Program-made: the position numbers and the translations under genes
Notes under the pieces: generated by a model
Databases searched by the model: none
The model's input: the letters and a program-made list of their open reading frames with translations, nothing else
Told to the model about the DNA's origin: nothing
Source of the DNA: Membranipora membranacea
Lineage: Eukaryota; Bryozoa; Gymnolaemata; Cheilostomatida; Membraniporidae
Assembly (NCBI GenBank): GCA_914767715.1
Contig: OU612071.1
Coordinates: 19,402,948 to 19,466,947, forward strand
Reading direction: 5' to 3'
DNA: 64,000 bases
Part shown: in pieces, positions 41,071-60,430 of the stretch
Position numbering within the stretch: the stretch's first letter is position 1
Layout: the number at the start of each line of letters is the position of its first letter

Positions 41071-43282
41071 TCACGGGGGAATCTTTGTGGTGACAATGAG
41101 ACTCAGAGTGGGGTATCTACTCTCCTCAATTAGTCTGTCTGTAAGTCTCTGCTTTAAGTCATCAGGTATTTCGGTAACTGTACCGTCAAAGGTGACATCA
41201 GTAGACCAGGTTACTGTCAGAGTATCTTTCTGACAACTCAGCCTTGCCTCTGAACCACTTGATGTGCTGCAGTCTGTAAGAAATAGAATAAAATGGCTAA
41301 AAAATTTGAACAAAGCAATGAGAGTGATTGAGTTCTAGTTTTACAGTTCAATATCCTGAAAGGTGATTTCAACAAGACTAGAAGTTATGGAACCATCCTT
41401 AACTCAGCAAAGTGTGCAACTGATAAACTCCTGTTTTTCAATGATGGATGTTGAGGTTCTTTCACTGGGGAATTACATGTGGAGAAAGTTTCTAACTTCT
41501 TAGTTGGGGTCCATGCAAGTGTTAAGAAAGAAAAAGCAAAGAAAAGCAGCTATCTATCACAGGGCAGTTTGATGCAAATAGTTTGGCTATGCACTCACTA
41601 TCGCCCACTCACCTCCTTGACATATTTTCCTTATCTGGTTGACATAACCATTGGCGACAGTTGTGAGAGTAGATAAGACAACGTTATCAGTCAACAAAGA
41701 ACACCTTATATCATACTTGGCCACCATCTCAATACGTCGCAGCAGCAAAGAGTCTGAAATGTTGAAAATCAGGTTTCTACGCATCGACTAAGTTTATGGA
41801 TAGAACGCCCAATTGTTAAATGATATACCTTAATTTTTTGATGTGAAACGTTCATAGGAAATGATTAAAGCATTTGTTGATATTGAATAACCAATAATGG
41901 TCTGTACCTTTGATCTCTATTTTCAGTGAACAGTTTGTGTTTCCATATGTATGGTAGTTGTAGACTCCAACGGGTAGTTCAATTCTTTTTACTGTGCCAT
42001 CTAAGTTTATATCTACAGCTGATAATCCAGTAGTAGAAGAGACAACTCCTCTGAGCACATCCGGACATTTTCCAATTTCTGATGTTGTACCTGATAAACA
42101 GTAACACATGAGAGTAACTTGTTATTACAATTAATTCAAAGGCTCCTCTACATCAGATGCCCTGACAATATGGTCTGGTTGTCGAGTCTAAAGGTAAATA
42201 GATTTCATCAATATGATGACAATACTGAAGCACAAAAGATCAGAGCTCGGGTACTTGTGTAATGAGTGGGTTATTTATGTAAATATTCATATAAGCCTGT
42301 GTCCCAGGTTTTGCCTACTACATTAGCTATGATGGGAAACTTAAAATTGATAAATGAATGTTTATACTTATACTCACTATTACTGATGACTATAATATTT
42401 ATAGTACATTTGTTTGTATGAATTACGTGACTTCCCACAGCAAATCCAGTCTTGACACCAGGAGTTATCTCACCAAAAGCTCTCTCCTGATGAGATGTCA
42501 CATATAGAGTCATGTTACTGTCCTGACAAGGTGCTCCGGTGGTCGATGTGTGTGTCATAGCAGTTGTCGCTGCAGTTGTCGCTGCAGTCGACAGTGTAGA
42601 AGCTTCAATGATGGTAGTTGTCAGTGTGGAAGCTTCCATGAAGGTAGTTGTAAGTGGGGTAGTTACTGGGGTGCTAGTTGTTGTGGTAGCTGTTGGTGTG
42701 GTAGATGTTGATGTGGTAGTTGTTGGGGTGGTAGTTGCTGGTGCAGTGGCTAATTTTGGATCTAAATATAAATGAGTTCACCAAATTTGTGATTATTGAA
42801 AATTGGAAATATGAAATACAGCATCTTTCTGCATGTATCAATACCAAACTACAATTTTATAAAATCATGTAACTTGAACCATACGAAATAGGTTGTTGAG
42901 TCACTGGTATATGCAATGCCTTATGTACTTCAGACTGCGCCAGAAGGTTAGCCATCTCAAGAGAAACCTTTATCAAGGTCATACCAATTACAAAGTATTG
43001 CATACTTATTTCCTTAAAAATATGTATATACTGTATACTCACATATATACTGCTGCATCCTACAGTATTGTCCGACATATAGAGAGTGATTAGTGATAAG
43101 AAGAGAAGAGGGACGGACCAGACATCCTGAACAGAGATCCAGTGTGGATACTCTGTCTGTGCTCATATCTACAAGTCGGATCTTGTTATTGTTCTCTTCA
43201 GCGACAAGAAGAGCCTGATGACCGATGAATACAATGTCACGTATGTATGAGAAGAGTGAGTTGAGCAGAGAGCTGTCTTGGT
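41071..43282 (-). CDS. NHL/mucin secreted protein, 3' part (exon 3 end to exon 7)
   Basis: This is the downstream part of the host gene cut by the transposon at 43288-50048. Coding pieces: 43043-43282 (end of exon 3), 42378-42761, 41908-42090, 41613-41753 and 41071-41273; every junction is phase 1 and in frame. Exon 3 finishes with an NHL-like blade, LLVAEENNNKIRLVDM. Exon 4 begins with a threonine-rich run (STSTTPTATTTTSTPVTT), probably O-glycosylated, then CQDSNMTLYVTSHQERAF. Later exons add single cysteines (IGKCPDVLRGVV, YDIRCSLL, CSTSSGSEARLSC) and end TTKIPP. Lacking a membrane segment, it should be secreted. This part alone has no start codon. Confidence 0.75.
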
Positions 43283-43287
43283 ACCCT
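43283..43287. repeat. left 5-bp target duplication, ACCCT
   Basis: ACCCT directly precedes TGTTACACCC at the left end of the transposon and is repeated exactly at 50049-50053 after GGGTGTAACA. Confidence 0.85.
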
Positions 43288-43672
43288 TGTTACACCCACA
43301 AGTGTAATAATTTTCAATACTTGTAATAACACCCACAAATGTAATAATCTCTTCCCTCAAATGTAATAACCAACCACAAGTGTAATAACTTCTTCCCTCA
43401 AGTGTAATAAAATGCTTCATCCACAAGTGTAATAATCTGTTCCCTAAAATGTAATAAAAAAAAATCACCAACATGTGTAATAATCTCTTCCCTCAAATGT
43501 AATAATTTTATTCACGGTTAACTGTATTGGAGAATAGAGAGGTTAGATCATCTGACAGCGCTATTACTGTGTTATATGCGCCTTTTGGTGTTTTTTTTGC
43601 ACTCCAAATTGTCATAATAGGGCTTTAAATCATATGAAAATCAATCCGTTTGAGTTGTATAGGGGAGACAAC
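43288..43672 (+). repeat. left terminal inverted repeat of the transposon
   Basis: Outer part, to about 43506: alternating CACCCACAAGTGTAATAA and TCTTCCCTCAAATGTAATAA units. Inner part shares CCAATACAGTTAACC-like, TAGCGCTGTCAGATGA and GTTGTCTCCCCTA (as complements) with the right repeat. Regular subterminal units may be transposase binding sites; this is inference. Confidence 0.8.
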
Positions 43673-44068
43673 GTAATTGTAAACGGCTAAAAATTTGACT
43701 CCTATGAAAATCAATCCATCATTCATCCATCCATGTAATCATTTTTCACCATACCTATTCTGCAGCTAGCGGGCCATTTTTCTTTCCTAGCTTTCAATAA
43801 AACTCCTAAATTTGACCTGCAGTGGAGCACACCTAGTTAGTAGCACCGCAATGGACTGGGGGAAAAGGTTATGAGTTAGAGGCCTAACTCATTCTAGTTA
43901 TAAACCTATTGATTGTATCATCAGCCGGTGTGAAAAAAACCAGATTCGTTTGGAATGTGTTGGAATAGCATGGGCATAGGCTTAGTGCAAGGAAGACAAA
44001 GCTGATAAAAATTACACTACCTACTGTCAGTGGATGAAGCACAACTTGAGTTTTAGTGATGAGTTAAT

Positions 44069-44265
44069 ATGCCAACAATTTTTTATCAAAGGCTGCGCCG
44101 GAACCCAGTCATGGTCGTAGTAAGGCAAAAAGTCTCCACAGTACTTGTTTATATACTGCTCATTACCAATAACATTAATTTTGCGAATGCTTGCAATAGT
44201 TTTCAATCAAGCAATGGAACCTATACATTTCCTAGCTATCTCTGCGCATGTCCTTGGTGTCAAGG
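44069..44265 (+). CDS. possible signal-peptide exon inside the transposon, plus strand
   Basis: An ATG-started frame ends at a good donor, CAAGG|GTAAGTGG. It has a hydrophobic core (VSTVLVYILLITNNINFANA) preceded by basic residues and followed by CNSFQSSNGTYTFPSYLCAC and PWCQ. This looks like a secreted, Cys-containing N-terminus. It lies between the left repeat and the 3' end of the transposase gene, on the opposite strand. No second exon was identified, so it may be chance. Confidence 0.3.
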
Positions 44266-44726
44266 GTAAGTGGTGACAAACCTGATGATTCAGAAATAGA
44301 ATGAACATTATGTGCTGGCAGCCCACCAGACAGCACTACCCAAGACTATAAATAGACTATAAATTCATCTAATATTTTATATATATATATATGCATATGT
44401 ACATTGTACCTTTATTGACATAAGACTGCTGCTTATAAAGTACAGGAATATAGCAGAGTAGGTGTTGGACAGGCCAGTACAGAAATTTAAGACATAATTT
44501 TTTATTATGGAACGGTAATAAGAGTATGAAAATAAATGCTACATGATGTATGAGACCTATGACCTGACTTCTATTTTAAAAGATGAACAGAAAGTCAGTA
44601 CTACTGATAACTAATCTACAGTTTAATACACACAAGCACACAACATGATATAATGATTGAAGTAAGAAAGCTAAATGTATAGTATCGAATCAGGGAACAA
44701 ATATACATCGGATTTAATTAGATTAA

Positions 44727-47700
44727 TCATTTCCAGTGTATGTCTATGACTCGATACCATCCGAATCTTAGTTTCTCCAAAGTAATGTAACCGTTTATCC
44801 AGCCAGTGCCGTTGCCCTGCAACATTTCTCGCAGTTCTAGCGCCACTCCACGGCCTCTTCAACAATGTAGCATGATCGTTCTAACACCGATCACTGGGTT
44901 TAGTTCCAACTTCAGCGCTCTCTCATCCATTAGATTGAAATATACCAGTGGGCATGATTTACGGGATTCATACACACACACAGGAAATTGAGTTCCAAAG
45001 ACGGTCTTTATATTGAGGAAATCATATATGCTGCCCGTGGCAGCATACCGGAATATGCGCTCAATATCAGCACATTTCAAGTCGAAAAACTTGCAACAAG
45101 GCTTCCGGCGCATGTTGAGGGCTAAATCACGCCACAGCCGACACACACTCCGTATCCTTGTCGGACATCTGAGATCGACGGAACATAGCTGAAGTAGGAG
45201 CATAATCACTAGTAGAGGCAGTTCATCGATATGAAGTGGGGATCTTTAAAATATTAGACAGAAAAGATGAATCACACTTTCATATCATAATCAGATCGAT
45301 ATAAATCTCCCTCCCAGTGAAACGCATTCTGATAACCCTAATCACAATGATGTAGTATAAACATACAAAATATGTCACTTCCTACTATATATCTTCTTAT
45401 TTCCCTGATGGTAATTTTAAAAGTAGCAATATAACATCAAGCGGATTGGGTATAGATATTGTAAATGAATAGTGCCATTTACATACCGTTCCTCAGCTGA
45501 CTCCTTTGATGATGGAGTTTCCCTATCACTGTCAGTGGTCTTTGGCAGACGGGTTGGTTCTCGCTTTACTTCTACAGTGCTGGTACTACAATGGTAGAAA
45601 TCAAAATACATGTTATCAAGAACGTAATACATCTTTGCCCTTGATCAAGAAACACGTATCGACAATATATAGGCAATGACGGTCAGAATAAATAGTCTTT
45701 ACTTTGCTCTTTGTCTTTGATAAGTATGTGTTCAGGGGCCCCGCAGCTTACCATATTTTCAAGCTCCTATACCGAGCTTGATGAATTTATTCACGGTTAT
45801 TCTGACTTGGCAAGGAAAACCTACCAGATTTTGAACCTGAAAGCTGGAAGCGACAATAGGAGTTATCCTTCCATGTATTTAGGCCTTACCTGATATTAAA
45901 TGCTGAATTCTGTGCTTTAATGCGGCTGCTGTTAGACTCGATAATTGTATGATTGATGGGAATGTCTGTTGCTTCTGATGTACTGGCGCTACAACCATTG
46001 AAAGAAAAAGAAAATTTTATTATCGGTTCTATCACTGCCCCGGTTTTCCCAGTCTTAATTGTGCAACATATTCATATAGGTGATTGAAGTTATCTGTAAA
46101 CCAGGAAGCATCTCTAGTTTGTCTCCTGTCCACTACTCATTGTATCACATTCCGTTTATACTGTATAATTGAGTCATCGTGGCTTGCACAAAATAAGTTT
46201 TACTATGTTTTGGTTTGAACATTAATGATCATGCGATTAGAATGAATCAATGGAAACAAAATTAAATACCTGGTTGTAGGGGAGGGTCTTGTGGAATCTG
46301 TTGTAATCTGCCTTGAACTCTCAACGATTTGATGTATGTCCCTCATGTCATTCCTAAGGACTACATAATGGGTACCTCTCGTCTCGTCTTGATGGTCAAG
46401 TACAATCGTGGGCAGCGCTCTATTGAATGCTGTGCTTCCACTTGGTGTTAGTATTGTTGATCCATGTTGAATAGTAGAATCAATGAGTATCTGCACAAGG
46501 AAGATTTCTTCAGCTACCTGGAGCGTTAGATGGTCGCCAAATTCTGAATTTTGGCTCATCCGTGTGATGTATTCGTATTCATCCTCCCCAATTGCTTCAG
46601 TCCACAACATGCTGTTTTGGATTCCTACATACCTGTTTCTCATGAGATATTCAATAACCTCACATCTGAGTGTGTCCGCCGAACGGTATATTCCTAACTG
46701 TTGAATAGCGTACGCTATGGCTGCAAATTGACAGTTCCCAACCGGTGCTGGGTTGAAAATGGTCGGCGATGCAAAGAGTTGAGAGCTGTTGCTTATCTGC
46801 ACGTCCAATCTGGTTTGCTGCATTCGTTTCTTTTGGAGACTAAGTGTACTGCCAGTCAGGTCCCTGACTGAAATCCACATTGTTTTGGCATTGTTATTCA
46901 CGTGATATTTTACTTTATACAAGTACAGTTTTTCATTTCTCTGGATTACATTTCCCATCACAACCTTTGCCTTGGATATTCTTTTGTTGCCTGTCCTTAG
47001 CCGTATCAGGACTCTGTCATTTATTTCATATGGCGGTGTTTTTAATGACTTGATTGACCGTCTTATAACTCTCTCATTTTCCTTTTCACTGGCTATTCTT
47101 GCCTCACTTTGAATTCTCTCAGTTGTGTTCTCGGATGTTGTGAGGAACTTCTCCCGTCCGTAATACACATTTAGTGGACTCCACCAGGCTAGTTCTCCTC
47201 ATGGCATATCGTTCAACTGGAGTTCATATGTAGGAAGCTCATTTACCCAGTTTGTACCATTGGGATTCGAGATGAGGTCGTACTGCATTTTGTACTTCAA
47301 CGTACGGTGGGACTTCTCTACTTTCCCCTGCGACTCTGGGTGATATGGGCTGCTGAATATTTGTCAAATGTCTCTTGCCTTCAGCAGTCTGGACACATCC
47401 TGCTTAAATTCTGTACCTTGGTCATTCTGGACTATCTTTGGGCTACCAAACGTGGCAAATATCGCCTTCAGCTCCTTTGCCACATTTTTTGAAGATTTTC
47501 TTGTCAACGGTCTCAGCCAGGTGTATCTAGAGAAGACATCGAGCACAGTCAGAATATATCGATATTCTTTACCATTATGATACGCCGGATTGTTGCGAAA
47601 GTCAACTAAGTCGATTTGTACTCGCCACATGACGGTCCTACAGCATATCGGTGTAATGGGAGCCTTGTTACTGAACCTAGCAGACAGTCTTTGCCGGGTG

Positions 47701-49108
47701 GTTGAGTGTTGTAACGCAGATGCAATAGTTGCCTCAGAGAACCCTACGTATGTGCCTTTCATTTTTAACTGCAAACGTCGTGGTCCAAGACCCTTCTCAA
47801 TATCAAAGTGTTAAGCAATCACCGGTGCCTTCTCGGATTGTCGTATCACTCGTAATCCATCTGCAAAAAATCAGTAAAATATGGCATTACGGTCTGAGAC
47901 ATATTGACAATGTAGTATGCAGATGCTTTGTGTTGTGTGATTAAACACCTAGGGACTCCAATCAAAGGCATGAAGATATGTTCTTGTTCAAATTCACACC
48001 AAATGTCATACACCTGGAGCTGTCTTCTATGTATTTTTATATCAGTTGACTCCAACAAAAAGGGCGGACAACTCCAATATTCCACACAAACTACATTAGC
48101 TACTGCTATTTATATGAATGCAGTATGAATGAGTAAAGTCATAGTGTATGCACCAAGGTTATTTCAATTAAGTTTCATTGACATCTTCTTGTTTCATGAA
48201 TGAGGATGTGGAGACAAGAAAATTCATCACAATTGACCGTCTTCAGCGTAATAGCCAATTAACACTAGGGGTGGAATGAGACAGTTTTTGAAAGTCAAAA
48301 CAAGATGAGAAGGGACAGCACGAAGTAAGGACAAAGTAGGAACAATTTAATCATTTTTTTCCTGGTTCGAAAATGAGATTGGGGAACTTATTTTTGTGTC
48401 AACGAGACTGCGTCACCCCGACTCGAAATCCATCTCGAAACGGAGGGGCGTCTCATTCCTAATGAAGACAATTAATAGTCATGCATTACCTAAAATAAAC
48501 ATTACCCGGAGAGACAGGTAATTCGAAAATGCTGTGCTACAAATTGGGCTGTGTGTAATGAAATATTCAATGAGTACATTGTGGATTAGGCTCTGCTTAC
48601 CAAGGAGAAGAATCTGTTCTGAGTCTTTGATTTCCACGCTCCAACGCCCCATGTAGCGCCAGTGATGAACATATGCAGAACGCTCCAATTTACTGCGGTC
48701 CTTGACTGCGGATTTAAAGTTTCCACTCTCTATTTTCATAATCACATCATATATGCCATCATTCATCACAGTAGGTTTTCTCTTTCCTCTAGCATACACA
48801 CTGTCGCAGCATATGAATATCGAAAAGACAAGTAGTCAAATCACTCTGAAAAAGAATAAACAGATTTCATTGATGACAATTCAAGTTATAGGTTTCATCA
48901 ATGACTTAGATCATTGGTTTCATGTATAATACTATTATTTGTAGCCGAACCGCTTAACATCTGAAACCTGGTAACTAATTGTCAGTTCCTTGTCAGGATT
49001 GATGATGGAATGCCAATGACAGGCAGTAACTTTAAAACGCTTGTAGGAACAATGAGATGAAAATGAGATAGTGATTGTTTTTGCTCACCTGAGGAGTGAA
49101 GTTGACAT
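44727..49108 (-). CDS. transposase: DDE integrase - OTU protease - F-box-like, four stops
   Basis: Six exons: 49089-49108, 48601-48800, 46270-47860, 45890-45988, 45487-45585, 44727-45243. All phases match, giving 841 codons. Residues 8-70 form an N-terminal basic region (ARGKRKPTVMNDGIYD, YMGRWSVEIKD). The integrase core has Asp157 (VQIDLVDF), Asp220 (VQNDQGTEF) and Glu255 (SQGKVEKSHR). A SH3-like module follows at about 350-405 (YEINDRVLIRL). An OTU domain spans about 440-580, with nucleophile Cys450 (PVGNCQFAAIAYA), FGDHLTLQVAEEIF and His571 (THYVVL). A disordered linker (exons 4-5) leads to an F-box-like segment at 676-715 (IDELPLLVIMLL, IRSVCRLWRDLA). Codons 90 (TAA), 239, 294 and 798 (TGA) are nonsense, so this copy cannot make the full protein unless they are recoded. 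Confidence 0.8.
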
Positions 49109-49653
49109 CTTGGTCGCTGCAATGAACAGCAATAACTGATGAAAAATTCTACTTTCTTTTACACTGTGATATATTGGGGTAATAATGTCCAGCTGAGTCT
49201 GTTTATTTTTGACTTTTGCTTTTGTTCAAGTTATGTAACATTATGATTGATATTTTGTGCCTAAAAAGAGAGGAAAAATTAACACGTATTTATTAATTGG
49301 TTGAATGTACAATAGAATTAGAACAATTAAAGTCAACTGTGACTATCCTATGCTATAACGTTTTCACACATAATCTTGATGATTGTCCAAGTTTATGTAA
49401 ATCCTAGCCACCCTAAATGACGGCTCCAAAAAAATAATAAGGTGGGCAGCATCAGTAATATCATAGTTTGACCATCGTGAATCTTGATGTGCTCTGGCTG
49501 GCTTAATTAATACCATGACTCTTCCTACTAGACATATAAAGTTTGGTAATATTGTAGAGTACAATGAGATTGATTGTTAATACCCGTATTAAATTTGTTA
49601 GAGATGATCTCTCTAAGTGGAAGATTCTTATCAGTTTCAAAATTTATAATAAA

Positions 49654-50048
49654 GTTGTCTCCCCTACACAACTTAACGCCTTTGCATGGATTTTCATAGG
49701 ATTTACGTTAAAACCCTATTATGACAATTTGGAGTGCAAAAAAACACCATAGGCGCATATAACACAGTAATAGCGCTGTCAGATGATCTGATCTCTCTAT
49801 TCTCCAATACAATTGCCCGGCAAGTAAAATTATTACGTTTGAGGGAAGAGATTATAACACTTGTAGGTGATTTATTTTTTATTTCATTTGAGGGAAAAAG
49901 TTATTACAATTGTGGGTGAAGCATTTCATTACACTTGAGGGAAGAAGTTATTACACTTGTGGTTGGTTTTCACATTTGAGGGAAGAGATTATTACATTTG
50001 TGGGTGTTATTACAAGTTTTGAAAATTATTACACTTGTGGGTGTAACA
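49654..50048 (-). repeat. right terminal inverted repeat of the transposon
   Basis: Reverse complement of 43288-43672 with scattered differences. The outer part holds about ten alternating TTACACTTGTGGGTG and TTTGAGGGAAGAG units. It probably also holds the transposase promoter side, since the gene reads away from it. Confidence 0.8.
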
Positions 50049-50053
50049 ACCCT
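50049..50053. repeat. right 5-bp target duplication, ACCCT
   Basis: Identical to 43283-43287 and adjacent to the GGGTGTAACA end. One copy belongs to the host exon. Confidence 0.85.
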
Positions 50054-51565
50054 CCCCTCCCTCCAGCGATGCGTTTGATCATCTTATCACTGTATGTGAT
50101 ACGGTAGAGGACATGAGATGCTGCTATGACATAAAGATCTCCTTCTATGTCCTGGGTCAGAGCTGTGATAGCCCGAAGTATATCAGACTTTACGAAAGTA
50201 CAAACAGTTTCTGTGCTAATACTTACAGTCCTAACAGCCTTGTTACCCCGGTCGGTGAAAAGGAGCTGCCCGCCGTCTTTATTGTCTCTCATTACAGACC
50301 GGGGCTTGGAGATGAGACCAGGACGACCATCTGTGTAGCCTGATGTCTCACACTGTCCACTGAAGGTAGAGGTGATCCATGTGTCGAGGTCAATCACTCG
50401 CAGACAATTATTAGTTTGATCAACAACAACTACATGCTTATGAGTTATCTGTGTGAATCCAGTGATCTCTCCAAACAAAGCCTCAGCTCGACTCCCATCT
50501 TGGTATCCACTTGCCTTAGGATTTAATCCAGCTATTGTTGTTGAGGTTGTTCCATCAGTAGACTTCAGCGATCTTTTATCAGTGTAGATGACGTTTCCTG
50601 GTCTGTACATATCAAGTTCCATGTGCCACACATAGTAAGAAGTGGTGGTGGTTGTCTTAGCTGTGGATCTCGTCAATCTGTTAATGAAAATGTTCAGTAA
50701 ATGAAAATAGTATTGTGATGTTTTATCAATGTATTGCTCACAGGCTAGAAAAGAGAATAACGGATTTTGAAATATAGCTGCACGAGGGAAACCATTCAGC
50801 ATCACCTTATGGGTACTTAAAAGTCAACATAATTATGTTGCTTGTTTTTAAAAATGATATCTTATGGTGTTACCAAATCAACTTTAGTATCGAGTTGCAC
50901 CATTTATAACTAACACAGAATGTGAATATTATACTCTGTTACTTAGCAGTTCACAATGAATATCGCACTTGGGGCTGAGATCACAAGGCCTGTCTCAGTA
51001 CATAAGAGTGAAGGGCTCTGTTTACAGGCAGGTTGACACACCAGGGACTGTCTCACCCAGCACAGCCCAGTCTGATAATGCACACAAAGCGATTGCAGCA
51101 CAGTCCAAATACACATTAGTCAATGTGGATTTGAGAATGGATATTACATATTTGTCAACTTTTGTTCAAGAATTGAACAGCTCACCGGTCAACTAGAGAC
51201 TGTGTGCCCTGATCCATACACCAACATGACCTCAGTGTCACACAACATAACACCTGTAAAAAATATAGCCCTGCTTTAGTTTGCTGCAAGAGGTATCTCC
51301 AAGGAAGTTAAAGTTTGGAGAAGAAGAACTCAAAAATTTGGCAAAAAACTGATCCAACATTGAGAGTTAGACTTTTCGAGGCTTTATTAATTTAATGTAA
51401 TGTTAGGATCTAATCAAGTCATATTAAAAATCTGAAGATACTAACTACACTAGAACATCACTGAGGTGCAATGTTTATTTGTGCTATGCCTATGTTGGTT
51501 ATCACAAATCGTCGGTTCACCATTCTAATTGTACTTACAAGTAAAAGAGCCAATCTCAGCACCAT
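50049..51565 (-). CDS. NHL/mucin secreted protein, 5' part (exons 1 to 3)
   Basis: Upstream part of the interrupted host gene. Exon 1, 51539-51565, encodes MVLRLALLL; exon 2, 51186-51253, continues the signal peptide (VLCCVTLRSCWC) and ends in phase 2. Exon 3 starts at 50677 and is cut by the transposon after the duplication at 50049-50053. It contains a short Thr run (AKTTTTTSYYVWHM) and NHL repeat blades: GNVIYTDKRSL, VVVVDQTNNCLRVIDL, LLFTDRGNKAVRTVSI and DLYVIAASHVLYRI. NHL repeats form a beta-propeller that binds protein, sugar or RNA; with a signal peptide this one should act outside the cell. Joined to 43043-43282 the frame stays open and gives 624 residues over seven exons. In this assembly the frame instead runs into the transposon and stops after a few codons. 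Confidence 0.75.
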
Positions 51566-53824: not shown

Positions 53825-56384
53825 TTAGAAATCAATGGGCGCCCTGACATTGTTTTCGGCTATACTACCCATGAAGTCTGGAGCATTTTCTGCTGACGCC
53901 ACCATCAGTAGCTGTTTGATGTGTTCATCAGTAATCAGGATCTGTATTTGTTTTTTTATGAAAGCTAACTTGGAGAACAAAGACTCACATAAATATGAAC
54001 TCCCAAACAAAACTACAATCCCATGCCAATTTGACTTAACAGCACATACTTTTCCCTTACTACTGGCGGTGATCAGAAAACAATACCCTTCTCAGCCAGC
54101 TCTCTGGTACTGGCTGTGTCAGCCAAAAAATCACAGAGCTCAAGGACAACATCAGATGCTCTTATTGCAGGTTTAAACTGAGAAAGCTGCTCTTTCCATG
54201 CATCTGAGTTTGACATAGCTGGGACAGTAATCATTATCTATGATAGCACTGATATTCTTACAAGCCTTAAATCTACTGTTAAATTCTGTCATAAGTTGAG
54301 TTATAAATGTAGCTGCAGCTGCAGTTGTCACAGTATCGGGGTTGTCGAGTGTGTGTGAGTATGCCTTCAGAGTAGGAAAGTGATCCATATCATTCATAAC
54401 ATCATGATGAAAACATCTAGCTTGTTCAGGAAACCTTTTACAGAAACCAACATCGTAGCTATATCTCCGTCTCTTCCTAAAATTGTAAACAGAGAGCAAG
54501 CAATTTTTTTTTGGAAAAAAAGGAGCCAATTACAATCCAGTATTTTCAATGGATTTACTGACACACATCTAAGGATTTCAATTAAAATTACCTTGTAGTT
54601 TTAGATTGAGATCATTCAGCTTTGCAAGTATGTCTACCAAGAATGCCATGTCACACACCTTTTGTTAGCATTTCGATGTATCTGTGTGCATCGGCACTAG
54701 TTTGACTCTGAAGAAACTCCAATACCTCAGTCCTCAAACACCAGATACGCTGAAGAGATTTTCCCTTACCATATGTGCCCAAAAAAAAACAAATACTGAG
54801 AATTCATATAATTTCATGCTAGCTTTGAGTTAGATTTATTGAGCTTGCATGAATTACTTTATATCAATACGTACTTTTATTAATAATTACAAGCAGTGTA
54901 AATCGGCTACAATTTCTAATGATTAGGATGGTCAATAATATGTAATTGATTATTTACATGACACTGTTGTATGTCAGGAAATCATCGTACTCAGTCTCCA
55001 TTTCCTGGAGAAATGATATCAACTGGCGGTGACGCAGGCCAGATTGAGACTTCAAGAAGTTTATCATCTTCATGGCTTTTACCATCAGATCAGCGTAGCT
55101 GTCTTTTAGCTTGGCACATAAAACGGTGTCGTGTATGATCCGATGACACGCCAATAGATTCAGGCACCTATCCTTCAGATACTTTACAGAGCCAGAGTGC
55201 TTTCCTACCATTGCTGGCACTCCATCTGTTGCAACACCCACGATTTTGTTCCATGCTGGTATTTTTGATTCTATCAAATATGATGGCACCAGTTGCTCAG
55301 CCTTTCAGGCTAAGAAGTGTTAGCAGTCGCTCATGATATTGCTCGTTTGAATAGTATCGCACAAAAACAGCAAGTTGTGCAGTATCTCTGATGAGATAGA
55401 GAGATAGATTCATAATTCATAACGTCCTACAGTGTAGAATTTGTTAGCTCTTCACGATTTCTTCAATCCTTCGAGTGAAGGTGTTTCGTCCTAATGGGAC
55501 TTTCTCTACTGCGGTCTTTAGTTCTGGTTTATTGGGAAATAACATCTCTATCGTACTGACCATGCACATCTTCACAAGCTCGCTTTGAGAAAACGGCACC
55601 ATATTCTTCCCTAATTCAAATGCGACTTTATAGCTTGCCAATGTAGCAGCAGTTGCCGCATCTGTTGGTTTTCTCCGCAGCATCTTCTCAGCTTCTTCAG
55701 CTTGGCTAATCAGTTTTTTTCAGCCTTTCTTTTCTCATTTCAGTGCCAGGCGGATATCTGCTGTCATACTCTGAATGTACGGAGGCATAATGCCTTGAAA
55801 TCTATGGCAACGAAATATGGCCAATAACAGGACATCTGTCAGATAAGATGGCCTCATGCGAAATGCGCATGGTCCGGTACTGTCTTGGAATTAGCTTTGA
55901 GGAACATAGGAGGAACGAAGATATTTTACAAGAAGCAAAAGTTGTGCCAATTAAAGGCCTGATGAGAAGAAAGAGAATGCAGTGGTTTGGACATGTTCAA
56001 AGACAAGATAGTCAGGAAGACATCAGAAAAGTATGTGAGATGGAGATAAATGGCAATAGATCTAGAGGCCGCCCTAAGCAGAGATGGAGTGGTACAATAA
56101 ATGCGGACCTCAGATGGCTGGATCTTGATAGCAGCGATGTGGAAGACCGGAGCAGATGGAGAAGTCTGGTTGAGCTTGGTATCAAGCAAAAACCCGCCAC
56201 CCGTACAGGACAAAGGTGGTGAAAGGTGAGAAAGGTGAGAATAATGCCTTGAAATATTGCTCAGTTTGTTGAAAGACTGCGTCTTGTTACATATCAAGCA
56301 AACTGGTTTTCCTTGCACCTGTCTGACAAAATACTTATCAACCCAACCATCATTAAAGCTCCTTGCTTTCTCAGCCATTGTCAC
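53825..56384 (-). pseudogene. hAT transposase relic (DUF4371/GTF2IRD2-like)
   Basis: In order on the minus strand: an N-terminal zinc-finger-like start, AEKARSFNDGWVDKYFV and CLICNKTQSFNKLSNISRHY (to 56256); after an insertion, ASVHSEYDSRYPP; at 55444-55683 NMVPFSQSELVKMCMVSTIE and LGRNTFTRRIEEI; at 54954-55289 VGVATDGVPAMVGKHSGSV and LACHRIIHDTVLCAKLK, the catalytic-core region; near 54600-54780 remnants; at 54173-54529 a spacer; at 53825-54010 FGSSYLCESLFSKLAFIK and LITDEHIKQLLM, the hAT dimerisation end. The order and motifs match hAT transposases of the GTF2IRD2/ZBED/SPIN type. Frames change several times and stops are present, so it is inactive. Confidence 0.75.
55802..56240 (+). mobile_element. 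5'-truncated non-LTR insertion in the hAT gene
   Basis: Perfect 15-bp target duplications ATAATGCCTTGAAAT flank it (55787-55801, 56241-56255). The open frame 55848-56222 encodes the C-terminal end of a reverse transcriptase protein: RMVRYCLGISFEEHRRNEDI, RKRMQWFGHVQRQDSQ, RSRGRPKQRWSGTI. The 439-bp copy ends in GAAAGGTGA repeats. Removing it rejoins SNISRHY with ASVHSEY in frame. It is intact over its length, hence younger than the hAT decay. Confidence 0.8.
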
Positions 56385-56389
56385 TGCAA

Positions 56390-57600
56390 TAAGACGTTGT
56401 AAAAATGGAAAAGCTGGGAATTAGAGTGGGTGGAGTTGCATTTCCTATATATATGTTCAGATAACTCTCATGATATCAACAAACCAATGATTAACATCAA
56501 TCAATGAACAAAGCATCTACAGCATCTACCTACAGTGTAATTGTGATTGTTATGGACTACAAGGCCTCTTGATTTATTTACACGAGATTTGAGAGATTAC
56601 CTATAGTATCACAGGTTTTATTCTAATCCCCAACGGTTCCGTGAAACTGGAATAGAAAATGGTGCAATTAATGGTGGTGCATAAAAATGTGCCTCTTCAA
56701 TAAAAATGCCGTCAATAATTAACTATTCAATTTAACGCAAACTATAAGGAACAATATACTCAAAGATCAAATAAACACAAATCTCAACCCTATTAATTAA
56801 TTTTGAATGTACTGAGAAATAAAAAAGATATTGAGTCAAGTGAAGTTGGAGTAGAATTATTTTAACCTACAGAAAACGGAATTTAATTTATAACATAACC
56901 CTTTTGCTCTTTTAGTAAATCCCCAAATATCACCTTTGCCCAGAAAAATAGATAAATACAGATAAAGTTTATACGCAACTCAAGTTTACTGAGCCTGTGA
57001 GGAAAACCTCAAACACCAAGGCTCACAGGGCAACTAAAGGCTTGAGGAATTTGCTCGCCAAATTAATCCATCAATGCAGATAATTGGACACAAAACACAA
57101 TAGCCCGGTACCACACAAAGCTATGCAGCTATGGCCAATTAGGCACAACTCCCAGTGAATGGCAAAGGATCTAAACCGCCGTGAAGCAGCCACACTCCCG
57201 GCCAAATCACCTTGTGATTTCTCCCATCAACCATGACTGAAGATCGCAATTAAGAACTGATCAGAAAGAGAAAAAGAAGCCTAGTATATTTCTCAATCCA
57301 ATCCAAACATTTAGCAACACCAATCATGAATACAAAAACTGACATGCGAGAGGTTTGATCGAGCAAACAAATTAATTAACAAACGACAAGTTATTGAGGC
57401 AGCGACTGGCACTATCGAGAATAAATACAAATGAGAAGTGCCTATCGCTGTATGAAATGATAATAAATGCAATGCAATACAATAATGATTTAGTGCAGAG
57501 CAAAGCTTAACGAGTGAAAAAAAAAACACCATGAGGTGGGACGAAAAAGCAACAATTTAGAGTTGCTCCTCCATGAGTCCTGATAAAAGTCCAGTATTTA
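56390..57600. other. intergenic, possible 3' end of the BEL/Pao element
   Basis: No gene. A long terminal repeat of the BEL/Pao copy might lie between about 56.9 and 57.6 kb, but no matching 5' repeat is present for comparison because the element is truncated. Confidence 0.3.
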
Positions 57601-57613
57601 CATTGTATCCCTA

Positions 57614-60430
57614 TTACAGAGCTTCGTATTCGACTAGGCACACCAGTTTGTTAACTGGGCGAGTGAATGTTGAGTGATTGTTACTGATTACATCATAACA
57701 CAGACCTTTGACAGATCTGACTAGATTATCTACACTAGGTAAAACTTCGGTTATTCGTCCTAGTTTCCAAATACGTCGACCACAGTCATCACTGAGAATA
57801 ACGATGTCATTGATTGCGAGATTTCTTCTGGATTTTACCAATTTCTGTCTCTGCTGAAGATTTTGCACATACTCCTTATGCCATCTATTTCAGATTTTGT
57901 TGGCTAGCAGCTGTACTGCATGCCATCTCTTTCTGGCATAGACGTCGCCATCATCAAAATTACCCGGCATAGGTAAAATAACAGAGGACTTCATATGAAG
58001 TAAATCATTCGGTGATAAGGTTTTACAATCTGAGCTGGCAACCGTCAGAGGGCGACTGTTAATGATTGCCATACATTCATATAGTAGAGTACGCAGTGAT
58101 GTAGTACTGAAGTTATGCATATGTGGTGTCAAACCATTGAACACAGAGCGTATTGTCCTAATCATTCTTTCCAAACACCCGCCCATATGACTAGCGTGAG
58201 GGGTATTGAAAATAAACTCGCAGTGGTGTTCCTGTAGATATTTACTGAATGAACTATCTTGAGACATTTCATCATAGAGTTTCAGAATTTCGTTGTTTGC
58301 ACCAACAAAATTAGTGCCATTGTCACAACGCACAGAACTGACATTGCCTCTTAGAGCCACAAAGCAGCGCCAGCTCTGCAAGAAACAGTCTGTAGAGAGA
58401 TCGTCTAGAACAGGGCTGCCCAACGGGTGGCCCTGGGGCCGCATGCGGCCCCCTGACCCAATTATATGCGGCCCTCGACCCGACTGAGAGGATCGCGTAG
58501 TCGCAAAAACAATTTTCACCCCTTTATTTATTACATTCCTCATTTGTACAATAACAAGGAACGCTCTACATCTGGTCACAGTATTTTGGAATTCCCCACC
58601 ATTGCATTTGAGTGAGCTCCAATAAATAAAATTCCCACCTGCAGAGATGAAAATACTGCACGCCCATTATGAATGTTTGATTTATGGCGAGGTTGCGGGC
58701 CCCCAGGAACATTGCAATATGTGGATGCGGCCCCCTCAATGAAAAGGTTGGGCACCCCTGGTCTAGAGTTTCAATATGTACAGCTCTACTGAACAAGCAT
58801 GTGATTATTAGCCCATACTTCTTCATGTGTTTTCGACCGTCTTTTATGAGAAAGGGGCCAAAACATCACATCCTACATGTGTGAATGGGGGAACGGCTTC
58901 AACACGCTCAGGTGGAAGTCTGCCATTTTCTGACTTTCTACTGGCCTCCTGAGTCGAAGACAAAATGAGCATGTGTAAATCAGAGATGAGACCGCATTAC
59001 TCAAACCAACCACCCAACATCCAGCAGACCACACAGCTGACATGGTAAAAGTACGTCCCTGGTGAGCTTCTTATTCATGATAATGCTGCAAAATCTGTTT
59101 ACTGAGATTAGACTGTTTTGGTATGACAATGGGATGCTTGTCTGCTAATGACAGAGACGACAGTTTTACTCTACCACCCACTTGTAACAGATTATCACTA
59201 TCAATGAAGCAATCCAGTCTCCATAATGAACTAGATTTATCGATTGAACACCCTGACTGGATTGACTGAATTTCATTCTGATAGCTGATACTCTGGACTA
59301 GTGAAATGATGTAGTTTGATGCATTCTGGGTATGCTGAGCAGACAACTTCCAGCACCCATCAAATGAATGGTTTGACTTGATATTTTGGAACATGGCTAC
59401 ACATCTGACAGTTTGATTCCATGGTGATGATTAATTCACCAAACTCAAAACTATTTTATCAAACCCTGACATTCTTTCAGCTCAAAGTCATCAGGATCAA
59501 CAGTAAATGAACAGTTTGAGCTAGGATCGGTCTTCCACAGAAAGTCGGGTCCATGAAACCACATAGAATTGACCAGGAATTCTACTGTGCTTAATCCACG
59601 GGATGCAATATCTCAGGATTCAAACTAGTATTCACATAGTCTCATTGGGATATCAACGCGATTTCATTGATTTGAGTCACACAATTCGCAACAAATGTTT
59701 GGAACCGTTTCGAGTCATTATTGATATAGCCTAAGACGATTTTTGTGTCTGACCAGAGATAACTATCACACTGTTTGCCTAGTTCAGTTTTGAGAGAGTT
59801 ACATTGCTTAACAGCTAGTAATTCTGCTTGTAACTCTAGCCTAGGAATGGTAATACATTTCTTTAACGGAGTCACATGAGTTTTTCCTAGCATTAGACTA
59901 CAATTTACAGCATAATTTTTATCAAATGTCCTAACATATGAGCATGCTCCATACCCTAGCTCGCTATCATCTGTGAATGTATGGATTTCTTGTTTGACTG
60001 GCATGAATGAGTGTGGGTGATTACACCTGGGAATGGACAGACTGGAGATTTTGGAGATTTCAAAGTCCCAGATTTACCACTTATCACACATGTTTTGATC
60101 AAGTTCCTGGTCCCAACTCAAACTGTCTTTACATAAGTTTTGTATCATTACTCTAGCTGGCAGAATAAGAGGACTTATGAGACCCATACCCATACCGAAG
60201 CTTCATTAGCTAACACAGATCTCCTAATAATTTTCTTAGCAGGTACAGGCTGATATTTATAGGTGATTGGATCCGAGTGCAAGGCCCATAGCATGCCTAG
60301 AGCTCGCTCTGTTGAGTCGAGCAGCTGAATATTGTTCTGTGGTTTGAGATTCTTTAAAACACAAGAATCTAATCCTAAACTATTATTCCGAAACTTAATC
60401 TATTTGACCCCCAAGCAGATATGACTACTA
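57614..60430 (-). pseudogene. BEL/Pao retrotransposon polyprotein, 5'-truncated and broken
   Basis: Reading the minus strand: reverse-transcriptase connection remnants at about 60050-60430 (STERALGMLWALHSDP, LILPARVMIQNLC); RNase H at 59642-60004 (IHTFTDDSELGYGAC, CITIPRLELQAELLAV, LWSDTKIVLGYI); linker and zinc-binding-like region at 59071-59394 (LLQVGGRVKLS, HPIVIPKQSNL); integrase at 57890-58900 with VRCDNGTNFVGAN and SHMGGCLERMIRTIR; then DUF5641-type C-terminus at 57614-57880 (RNLAINDIVILSDDC, WKLGRITEVLP). The codon expected for the first integrase Asp, before CFGPF, is TGA. There are frameshifts, TGA before NRWHKEY, and a hAT MITE within the integrase. The gag, protease and N-terminal RT parts are missing. 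Confidence 0.8.
58411..58760. mobile_element. 350-bp hAT-type MITE in the BEL/Pao integrase
   Basis: The ends CAGGGCTGCCCAAC and GTTGGGCACCCCTG are inverted repeats, flanked by 8-bp duplications GTCTAGAA (58403-58410) and GTCTAGAG (58761-58768), one mismatch apart. CAGGG...CCCTG ends and 8-bp targets are typical of hAT elements. The interior carries further GC-rich inverted segments (GCATGCGGCCCCCTG, GGATGCGGCCCCC). Removal restores the integrase frame as AVHIETLDDLSTDCF. Confidence 0.85.

Follow-up and report, generated by a model that had tools for sequence, protein, structure and literature searches.

Ginger1 elements, as far as the main text of PMC2836005 describes them, are DNA transposons with a 4-bp CCGG/CCGT target site duplication (TSD), an H2C2 finger and terminal inverted repeats (TIRs) of 40-270 bp; OTU and Ulp1 proteases in their transposases were described in 2010, with an OTU or Ulp1 domain at the C-terminus in some families and a PHD in one. 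Here we analyze a 64,000-nucleotide stretch of the genome of the bryozoan Membranipora membranacea (contig OU612071.1, positions 19,402,948 to 19,466,947; the whole stretch is called the window), which holds at positions 43288 to 50048 a dead copy of a family of cut-and-paste DNA transposons of the integrase (DDE) kind. As predicted from the sequence, a single protein carries, in order, a hydrophobic leader, an N-terminal region, the DDE core, a linker, an OTU domain, two F-box-like blocks and a conserved C-terminal domain. We are nearly certain that the locus is a mobile element and that these domains are combined in one protein. The window element and its close copies are termed family 1, and a second group in the same genome family 2.

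The element resembles Ginger1 in its Gypsy-like DDE integrase, TGT...ACA ends (TGTNR; TGTTA in family 1, TGTAG in family 2), one intron-bearing gene and an OTU domain after the integrase. Unlike Ginger1 in the main text of PMC2836005, it has a variable 5-bp TSD, no H2C2 match, TIRs of ~390 bp (family 1) or 274 bp (family 2), two F-box-like blocks, a further C-terminal domain and a predicted hydrophobic leader; the term ‘F-box’ is absent from that main text. Set apart by these described features (5-bp TSD, no H2C2 detected), the window family is not Ginger1 as defined.

Ginger2/TDD-4 and TDD-5 share the integrase-type transposase and TGTNR ends, and TDD-4/5 also have a 5-bp TSD, but in the same text they have an H2C2 finger, prefer AT-rich RTATAY targets and are mentioned with no OTU (PMC2836005); none of the 13 left-hand 5-mers of family 1 fits the TATA core. 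IS3EU/GingerRoot and IS481EU are, like the window family, eukaryotic integrase-like DNA transposons without the HHCC motif, but have 6-bp TSDs mostly with TA..TA ends, or TSDs of ~4/15/25 bp, and the main text of PMC10045372 names neither OTU nor F-box; the 6-bp TSD with TA..TA ends of IS3EU/GingerRoot was found in neither family 1 nor family 2. An F-box is joined to a transposon-derived domain in published fusion genes, although there, according to the available text of PMC12062965, F-box genes captured the helix-turn-helix of Tc1/Mariner (C. elegans proteins included), rather than a transposon carrying an F-box. Among the titles and abstract openings of the best-ranked literature matches, a coverage that leaves out Repbase and most subscription papers, no integrase transposon with an F-box is reported.

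The element and its insertion site

The features that delimit the window element are as follows.

43288..50048, unstranded: whole transposon, 6761 bp, defined by its ends, TIRs, TSD and 12 further two-ended genome copies
43283..43287, unstranded: left target site duplication, ACCCT
50049..50053, unstranded: right target site duplication, ACCCT
43288..43683, plus strand: left terminal inverted repeat, ends approximate
49643..50048, minus strand: right terminal inverted repeat, start approximate

The termini read TGTTACACCC at 43288 and GGGTGTAACA at 50048, with ACCCT flanking each, and the outer part of the ~390-bp arms consists of ~41-48-bp subrepeats, which bears out the ends, 5-bp duplication and long inverted repeats of an initial annotation made from the sequence alone. 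Removal of the element together with one ACCCT leaves one continuous open frame of 347 amino acids (aa) (window 43000-43287 plus 50049-50823, minus strand), labelled NHL-repeat-like by eye. The restored frame and its NHL-repeat look indicate that the element probably inserted into a coding exon.

Gene structure

Six exons, all on the minus strand, make up the predicted gene.

49089..49108, minus strand: exon 1 (predicted), opens the frame with its first 20 bases and starts the leader; GT-AG junctions, conserved in copies
48601..48845, minus strand: exon 2, encoding the remainder of the hydrophobic leader followed by the N-terminal region, with a premature TGA at 48836-48838
46270..47860, minus strand: exon 3, integrase core, linker and OTU (Pfam rve, E=5.2e-12; OTU, E=4.8e-6); integrase residues D 47610-47612, D 47421-47423 and E 47316-47318; OTU residues Cys 46731-46733 and His 46368-46370; premature stops in the window copy at 47811-47813, 47364-47366 and 47199-47201
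45890..45988, minus strand: exon 4, linker
45487..45585, minus strand: exon 5, linker
44727..45243, minus strand: exon 6, encoding both F-box-like blocks and the C-terminal domain, with a premature TGA at 44859-44861

All five introns are GT-AG and the exons, whose junctions are predictions, join in a single frame of 856 aa. To this extent the six-exon gene of the initial annotation stands, and in one of 14 copies (L013) the frame is free of stops; the window gene itself is broken by in-frame stops at codons 10, 105, 254, 309 and 813. Comparison with copies and relatives places the expected protein end at 44727-44729 and makes the stop at 44859-44861 premature. The codon-10 stop is common to the window copy, L011 and L012 (3/14 copies), and the codon-254 stop to these three and L021 (4/14). 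That several copies have such stops in common could mean that a damaged subfamily was mobilized in trans or relied on a different start. Decoding of the stops by another genetic code was considered and rejected, given that one copy lacks all of them and that the codon-10 and codon-254 stops occur in only 3 and 4 of the 14 copies.

The integrase and OTU domains were both recovered above their Pfam cut-offs. For rve (cut-off 32.6 bits) the scores are 46.4 bits in the window and 53.7 bits in L013; for OTU (PF02338; cut-off 23.3 bits) they are 27.5 and 40.5 bits. The triad has the form D, D-34-E at residues 172, 235 and 270 of the window model, and the OTU catalytic residues are Cys465 and His586. 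These are the residues that had been numbered Asp157, Asp220, Glu255, Cys450 and His571, at a constant offset of 15. PDB integrases match the whole protein with E down to 1.3e-17, and no OTU protein appears among its PDB matches at E<=0.01. On the DNA transposon and its Gypsy-like integrase and OTU domain the initial annotation was right, and OTU has a published counterpart in Ginger1 (PMC2836005, main text).

F-box-like blocks and the C-terminal domain

Exon 6 divides into three parts.

45087..45243, minus strand: F-box-like block 1, borders approximate; F-box-like E=1.6e-4 in the equivalent L013 block
44904..45086, minus strand: F-box-like block 2, degenerate in family 1, borders approximate; aligns with the single F-box-like block of relatives
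44727..44903, minus strand: conserved C-terminal domain; AF2 block means 81-94

The initial annotation had named one F-box-like domain; we find two blocks, the second degenerate, followed by the further conserved domain, whose pattern, judged by eye, is about SVRxxxKxxGxGSGLxxxLRxIxxxxxWxNAWxxLxxxxxGWYxIxxIFWK. Block 2 is clearer in family 2 and in P0003, one of 29 integrase-OTU relatives (P0001-P0029, see below), while in family 1 it has lost the LP motif.

At E<=1 the window's own exon gives no match to Pfam F-box models. In L013 the F-box-like model gives E=0.0097 with the 823-aa protein, 0.0011 with the exon and 1.6e-4 with a 55-aa piece, all below the curated cut-off; whole proteins score 16.1 bits (L013) and 18.2 bits (P0013), and the highest score listed is 21.8 bits vs. 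24.3 required. The search of the translated exons with profile models that had been suggested thus recovers rve and OTU above cut-off and F-box-like only below threshold, in copies. When blocks were isolated, F-box models matched 11 of 20 vs. none of 20 shuffled blocks, and were the commonest match. The predicted structure of one block has F-box protein entries as its first 22 structural matches, with modest scores. The profile matches with their shuffle control, and less strongly the fold comparison, support an F-box fold of the blocks, which we consider probable. The proposed F-box-like domain is supported by these results and is shared with family 2 and relatives, at sub-threshold scores and with no match in the window exon.

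The blocks could instead be helical interaction modules that resemble F-boxes and do not bind Skp1, serving transposase multimerization or DNA binding. Sub-threshold Pfam scores, the lost LP motif of family-1 block 2 and the modest structural scores are in keeping with this, whereas the prevalence of F-box models in isolated blocks, their absence from shuffled ones and the 22 leading F-box entries speak against it; we consider the alternative possible but not favored.

In eight hand-picked pairs of relatives, identity is 21-65% in the F-box and 35-72% in the C-terminal domain vs. 16-46% in the preceding linker, which also varies in length; it exceeds that of the linker in 6 of the 8 pairs for the F-box and in all 8 for the C-terminal domain.

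Copies of family 1

A search with the terminal 24 bases against the Membranipora genome (339 Mb, 18 contigs) yielded 13 two-ended copies, the window copy among them, and the single-ended L020. An exact 5-bp TSD of varied sequence flanks 12 of the 13, and that of L015 is mismatched at one base. Over aligned bases the copies, except for L020, share 94-97% identity with that of the window. A tblastn search matches the F-box exon in each of the 13 two-ended copies (interrupted in L014), the OTU part in 12 (some not full length), and exons 4 and 5 in 12 each, L016 having lost both through an internal deletion. As to the suggested test of whether intact copies keep all three domains, rve, OTU and (below threshold) F-box-like matches occur together in the stop-free L013. 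Between two subfamilies (3 and 6 of the 14 copies) constraint is visible in the integrase only, and the rest is near neutral.

At L022 (C9:22526336-22527527) two copies of the inner TIR repeat face inward at a distance of ~0.8 kb; this short stretch could be a non-autonomous derivative.

A second family

The linker-OTU part of the window matches at least 49 places in the same genome. Family 2, ~34% identical to family 1, has the same layout, with stop-to-stop open frames in three copies (L036, 736 aa; L037, 739 aa; L039, 739 aa). L037 encodes an integrase (rve, 3.8e-12), an OTU domain (7.3e-12), two F-box-like blocks (motifs LPVEI and LPNHI; F-box-like_2, 0.026, below cut-off) and a C-terminal domain as in family 1; the OTU Cys is gone from L039, and L036 is missing its last residues. 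One element could be delimited (C11:15774065-15781040), with TGTAGAACCC ends, 274-bp TIRs that are 94.5% identical, and the TSD ATCCC. Between L037 and L039 there are 5 differences in 2220 positions, a sign of recent movement or duplication. Counts were too few to assess constraint in family 2.

The first bases of the two families (L053-L055, L009-L021) agree in 11 of 14 positions (TGTNNNACCCACAA), although their proteins are ~34% identical. In one family-2 copy (L062, C7:698500-703000) a minisatellite that encodes roughly SLYVTRPSPFLL is expanded between the positions of the two F-box-like blocks, and closely similar damaged family-2 copies lie at 6.07, 6.33, 6.58, 6.86, 6.99 and 7.45 Mb of C7, spaced by a few hundred kb, which gives them the look of belonging to a larger duplicated segment.

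Relatives and age of the architecture

With the L013 protein as query, 65 proteins were found at E<=0.001 (among 7994 candidates scored). The 29 integrase-OTU proteins, including members from Lytechinus, Diadema, Epinephelus and Montipora, have OTU in 29/29 and rve in 28/29. By eye, 15/29 (coral and grouper among the sources) carry an F-box-like block with the C-terminal domain after it, a count that includes P0011, whose record ends inside the C-terminal domain; 7/29 end or change soon after the OTU domain, and 7/29 have a C-terminal stretch without a block seen by eye, P0022 of these retaining the C-terminal domain. A tree of 63 integrase cores (out of 67 rows, four being dropped for a short core, P0028 included; subject to a long-branch warning) parts the integrase-OTU rows from Gypsy by a 100/100 branch, and F-box rows are scattered across the set. 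From this scatter the F-box looks old in the clade, with losses or truncated records. The combination of integrase, OTU and F-box-like domains thus looks like an old family trait, not an accident of the window copy. An ancient capture from a host before the family spread is possible and compatible with this explanation.

A predicted hydrophobic leader

Predicted exons 1-2 of L013 read MSTSLLRVMLLLVFSIFICCDSVYARGKRK, which is signal-peptide-like and open in 9/14 copies. Sea-urchin relatives P0006, P0007, P0008 and P0010 have MKFQRCIGLLLLLVAVVKSQGKKR or similar at the equivalent place, and in family 2 a candidate exon MRLLWYLSIFY, joined to VLIEAHRTSARGPRS, is present in 3 of 6 further pieces; P0013 and P0021 lack a leader. 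Peak hydropathy over 11 residues is 3.23 in L013, 3.41 in P0006, 2.96 in P0010 and 2.10 in family 2, against a background of 5000 random 30-mers of relatives in which 0.08% reach 3.0 and 2% reach 2.0. The leader is predicted from splice signals and others' gene models. As the stop at 48836-48838 within it is common to the window copy, L011 and L012, a leaderless subfamily seems to have spread. A membrane leader is not easily reconciled with nuclear and ubiquitin functions.

Possible functions of the combined domains

By binding Skp1, F-box proteins deliver their substrates to Cul1 ligases; such Skp1-Cul1-F-box (SCF) adaptors usually suffer self-ubiquitination, and OTU domains remove ubiquitin. 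The integrase core and TIRs of the window family are presumably those of cut-and-paste transposons with 5-bp staggers, and the core would act on the long TIRs and insert at 5-bp-staggered sites. The F-box-like blocks may dock the protein on the host Skp1-Cul1 ligase, with the C-terminal domain or the integrase holding a substrate and the OTU domain trimming ubiquitin in cis; going by domain content, the element protein would thus both bind Skp1 and cleave ubiquitin. The most likely use would be to turn the ligase on a host factor present at the target site or at the element's own ends, while the built-in OTU could shield the transposase from the self-ubiquitination typical of SCF adaptors. F-box-like blocks and OTU in one chain suggest such ligase recruitment with built-in protection, a mechanism that we put forward tentatively; our explanation of the locus overall is probably right. 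The fullest version, in which an old, still-spreading animal clade of integrase transposons is a self-contained ubiquitin editor (SCF adaptor with one or two F-boxes and a substrate domain, deubiquitinase and transposase) that clears a host silencing factor and spares the transposase, with a signal-peptide-like leader in some members that takes part of the protein through the secretory membrane or anchors it in the nuclear envelope, is unlikely to hold in all its parts together.

Alternatively, OTU and F-box might form a stability switch that acts on the transposase alone and has no target in the host. Their predicted presence in one polypeptide with the integrase and the self-ubiquitination of SCF adaptors would fit this, but the conserved C-terminal domain might serve to receive a substrate; we hold this switch, too, to be a minority possibility. 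Under ligase recruitment with protection, retention of the F-box-like blocks in two families and several animal groups would have a testable reason, namely transposons that add and remove ubiquitin, and the finding opens a way to identify the presumed host target of the ligase and presents, for structure determination, a C-terminal domain whose fold could not be placed.

That the family is simply Ginger1 of a species not yet catalogued is doubtful. The Gypsy-like integrase, TGTNR ends, single intron-bearing gene and C-terminal OTU agree with the main text of PMC2836005, but the TSD is 5 bp and variable instead of 4-bp CCGG/CCGT, and the H2C2 finger is missing where it was looked for. The models PF17921 and PF09337 match none of L013, L037, P0006 and P0013 at E<=1 and 0/29 integrase-OTU relatives at E<=0.1, of which just 12 extend far enough upstream; among 36 Gypsy control proteins they match 33 and 23, respectively.

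Capture of the 3' exons from a host gene by the window element alone, without function for the transposon, is very improbable and largely refuted by the common architecture: although fusions of F-box genes with transposon domains are published (PMC12062965, available text) and differences between the subfamilies are close to neutral except in the integrase, the exon is in 13/13 two-ended copies, in family 2 at ~34% identity and in 15/29 relatives across the integrase-OTU tree. The idea that this copy recently picked up a host F-box gene was likewise rejected on the 13/13 copies and the second family, and the outcome named beforehand as refuting, 3' exons from an unrelated captured gene, was not seen, the F-box-like domain recurring in family 2 and in distant relatives.

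Other features of the window

Elsewhere in the window, a minus-strand open reading frame at 57890-58666 resembles, by eye, a BEL/Pao-type integrase fragment, and another at 55926-56420, also on the minus strand, has a start that looks, by eye, like a BED finger.
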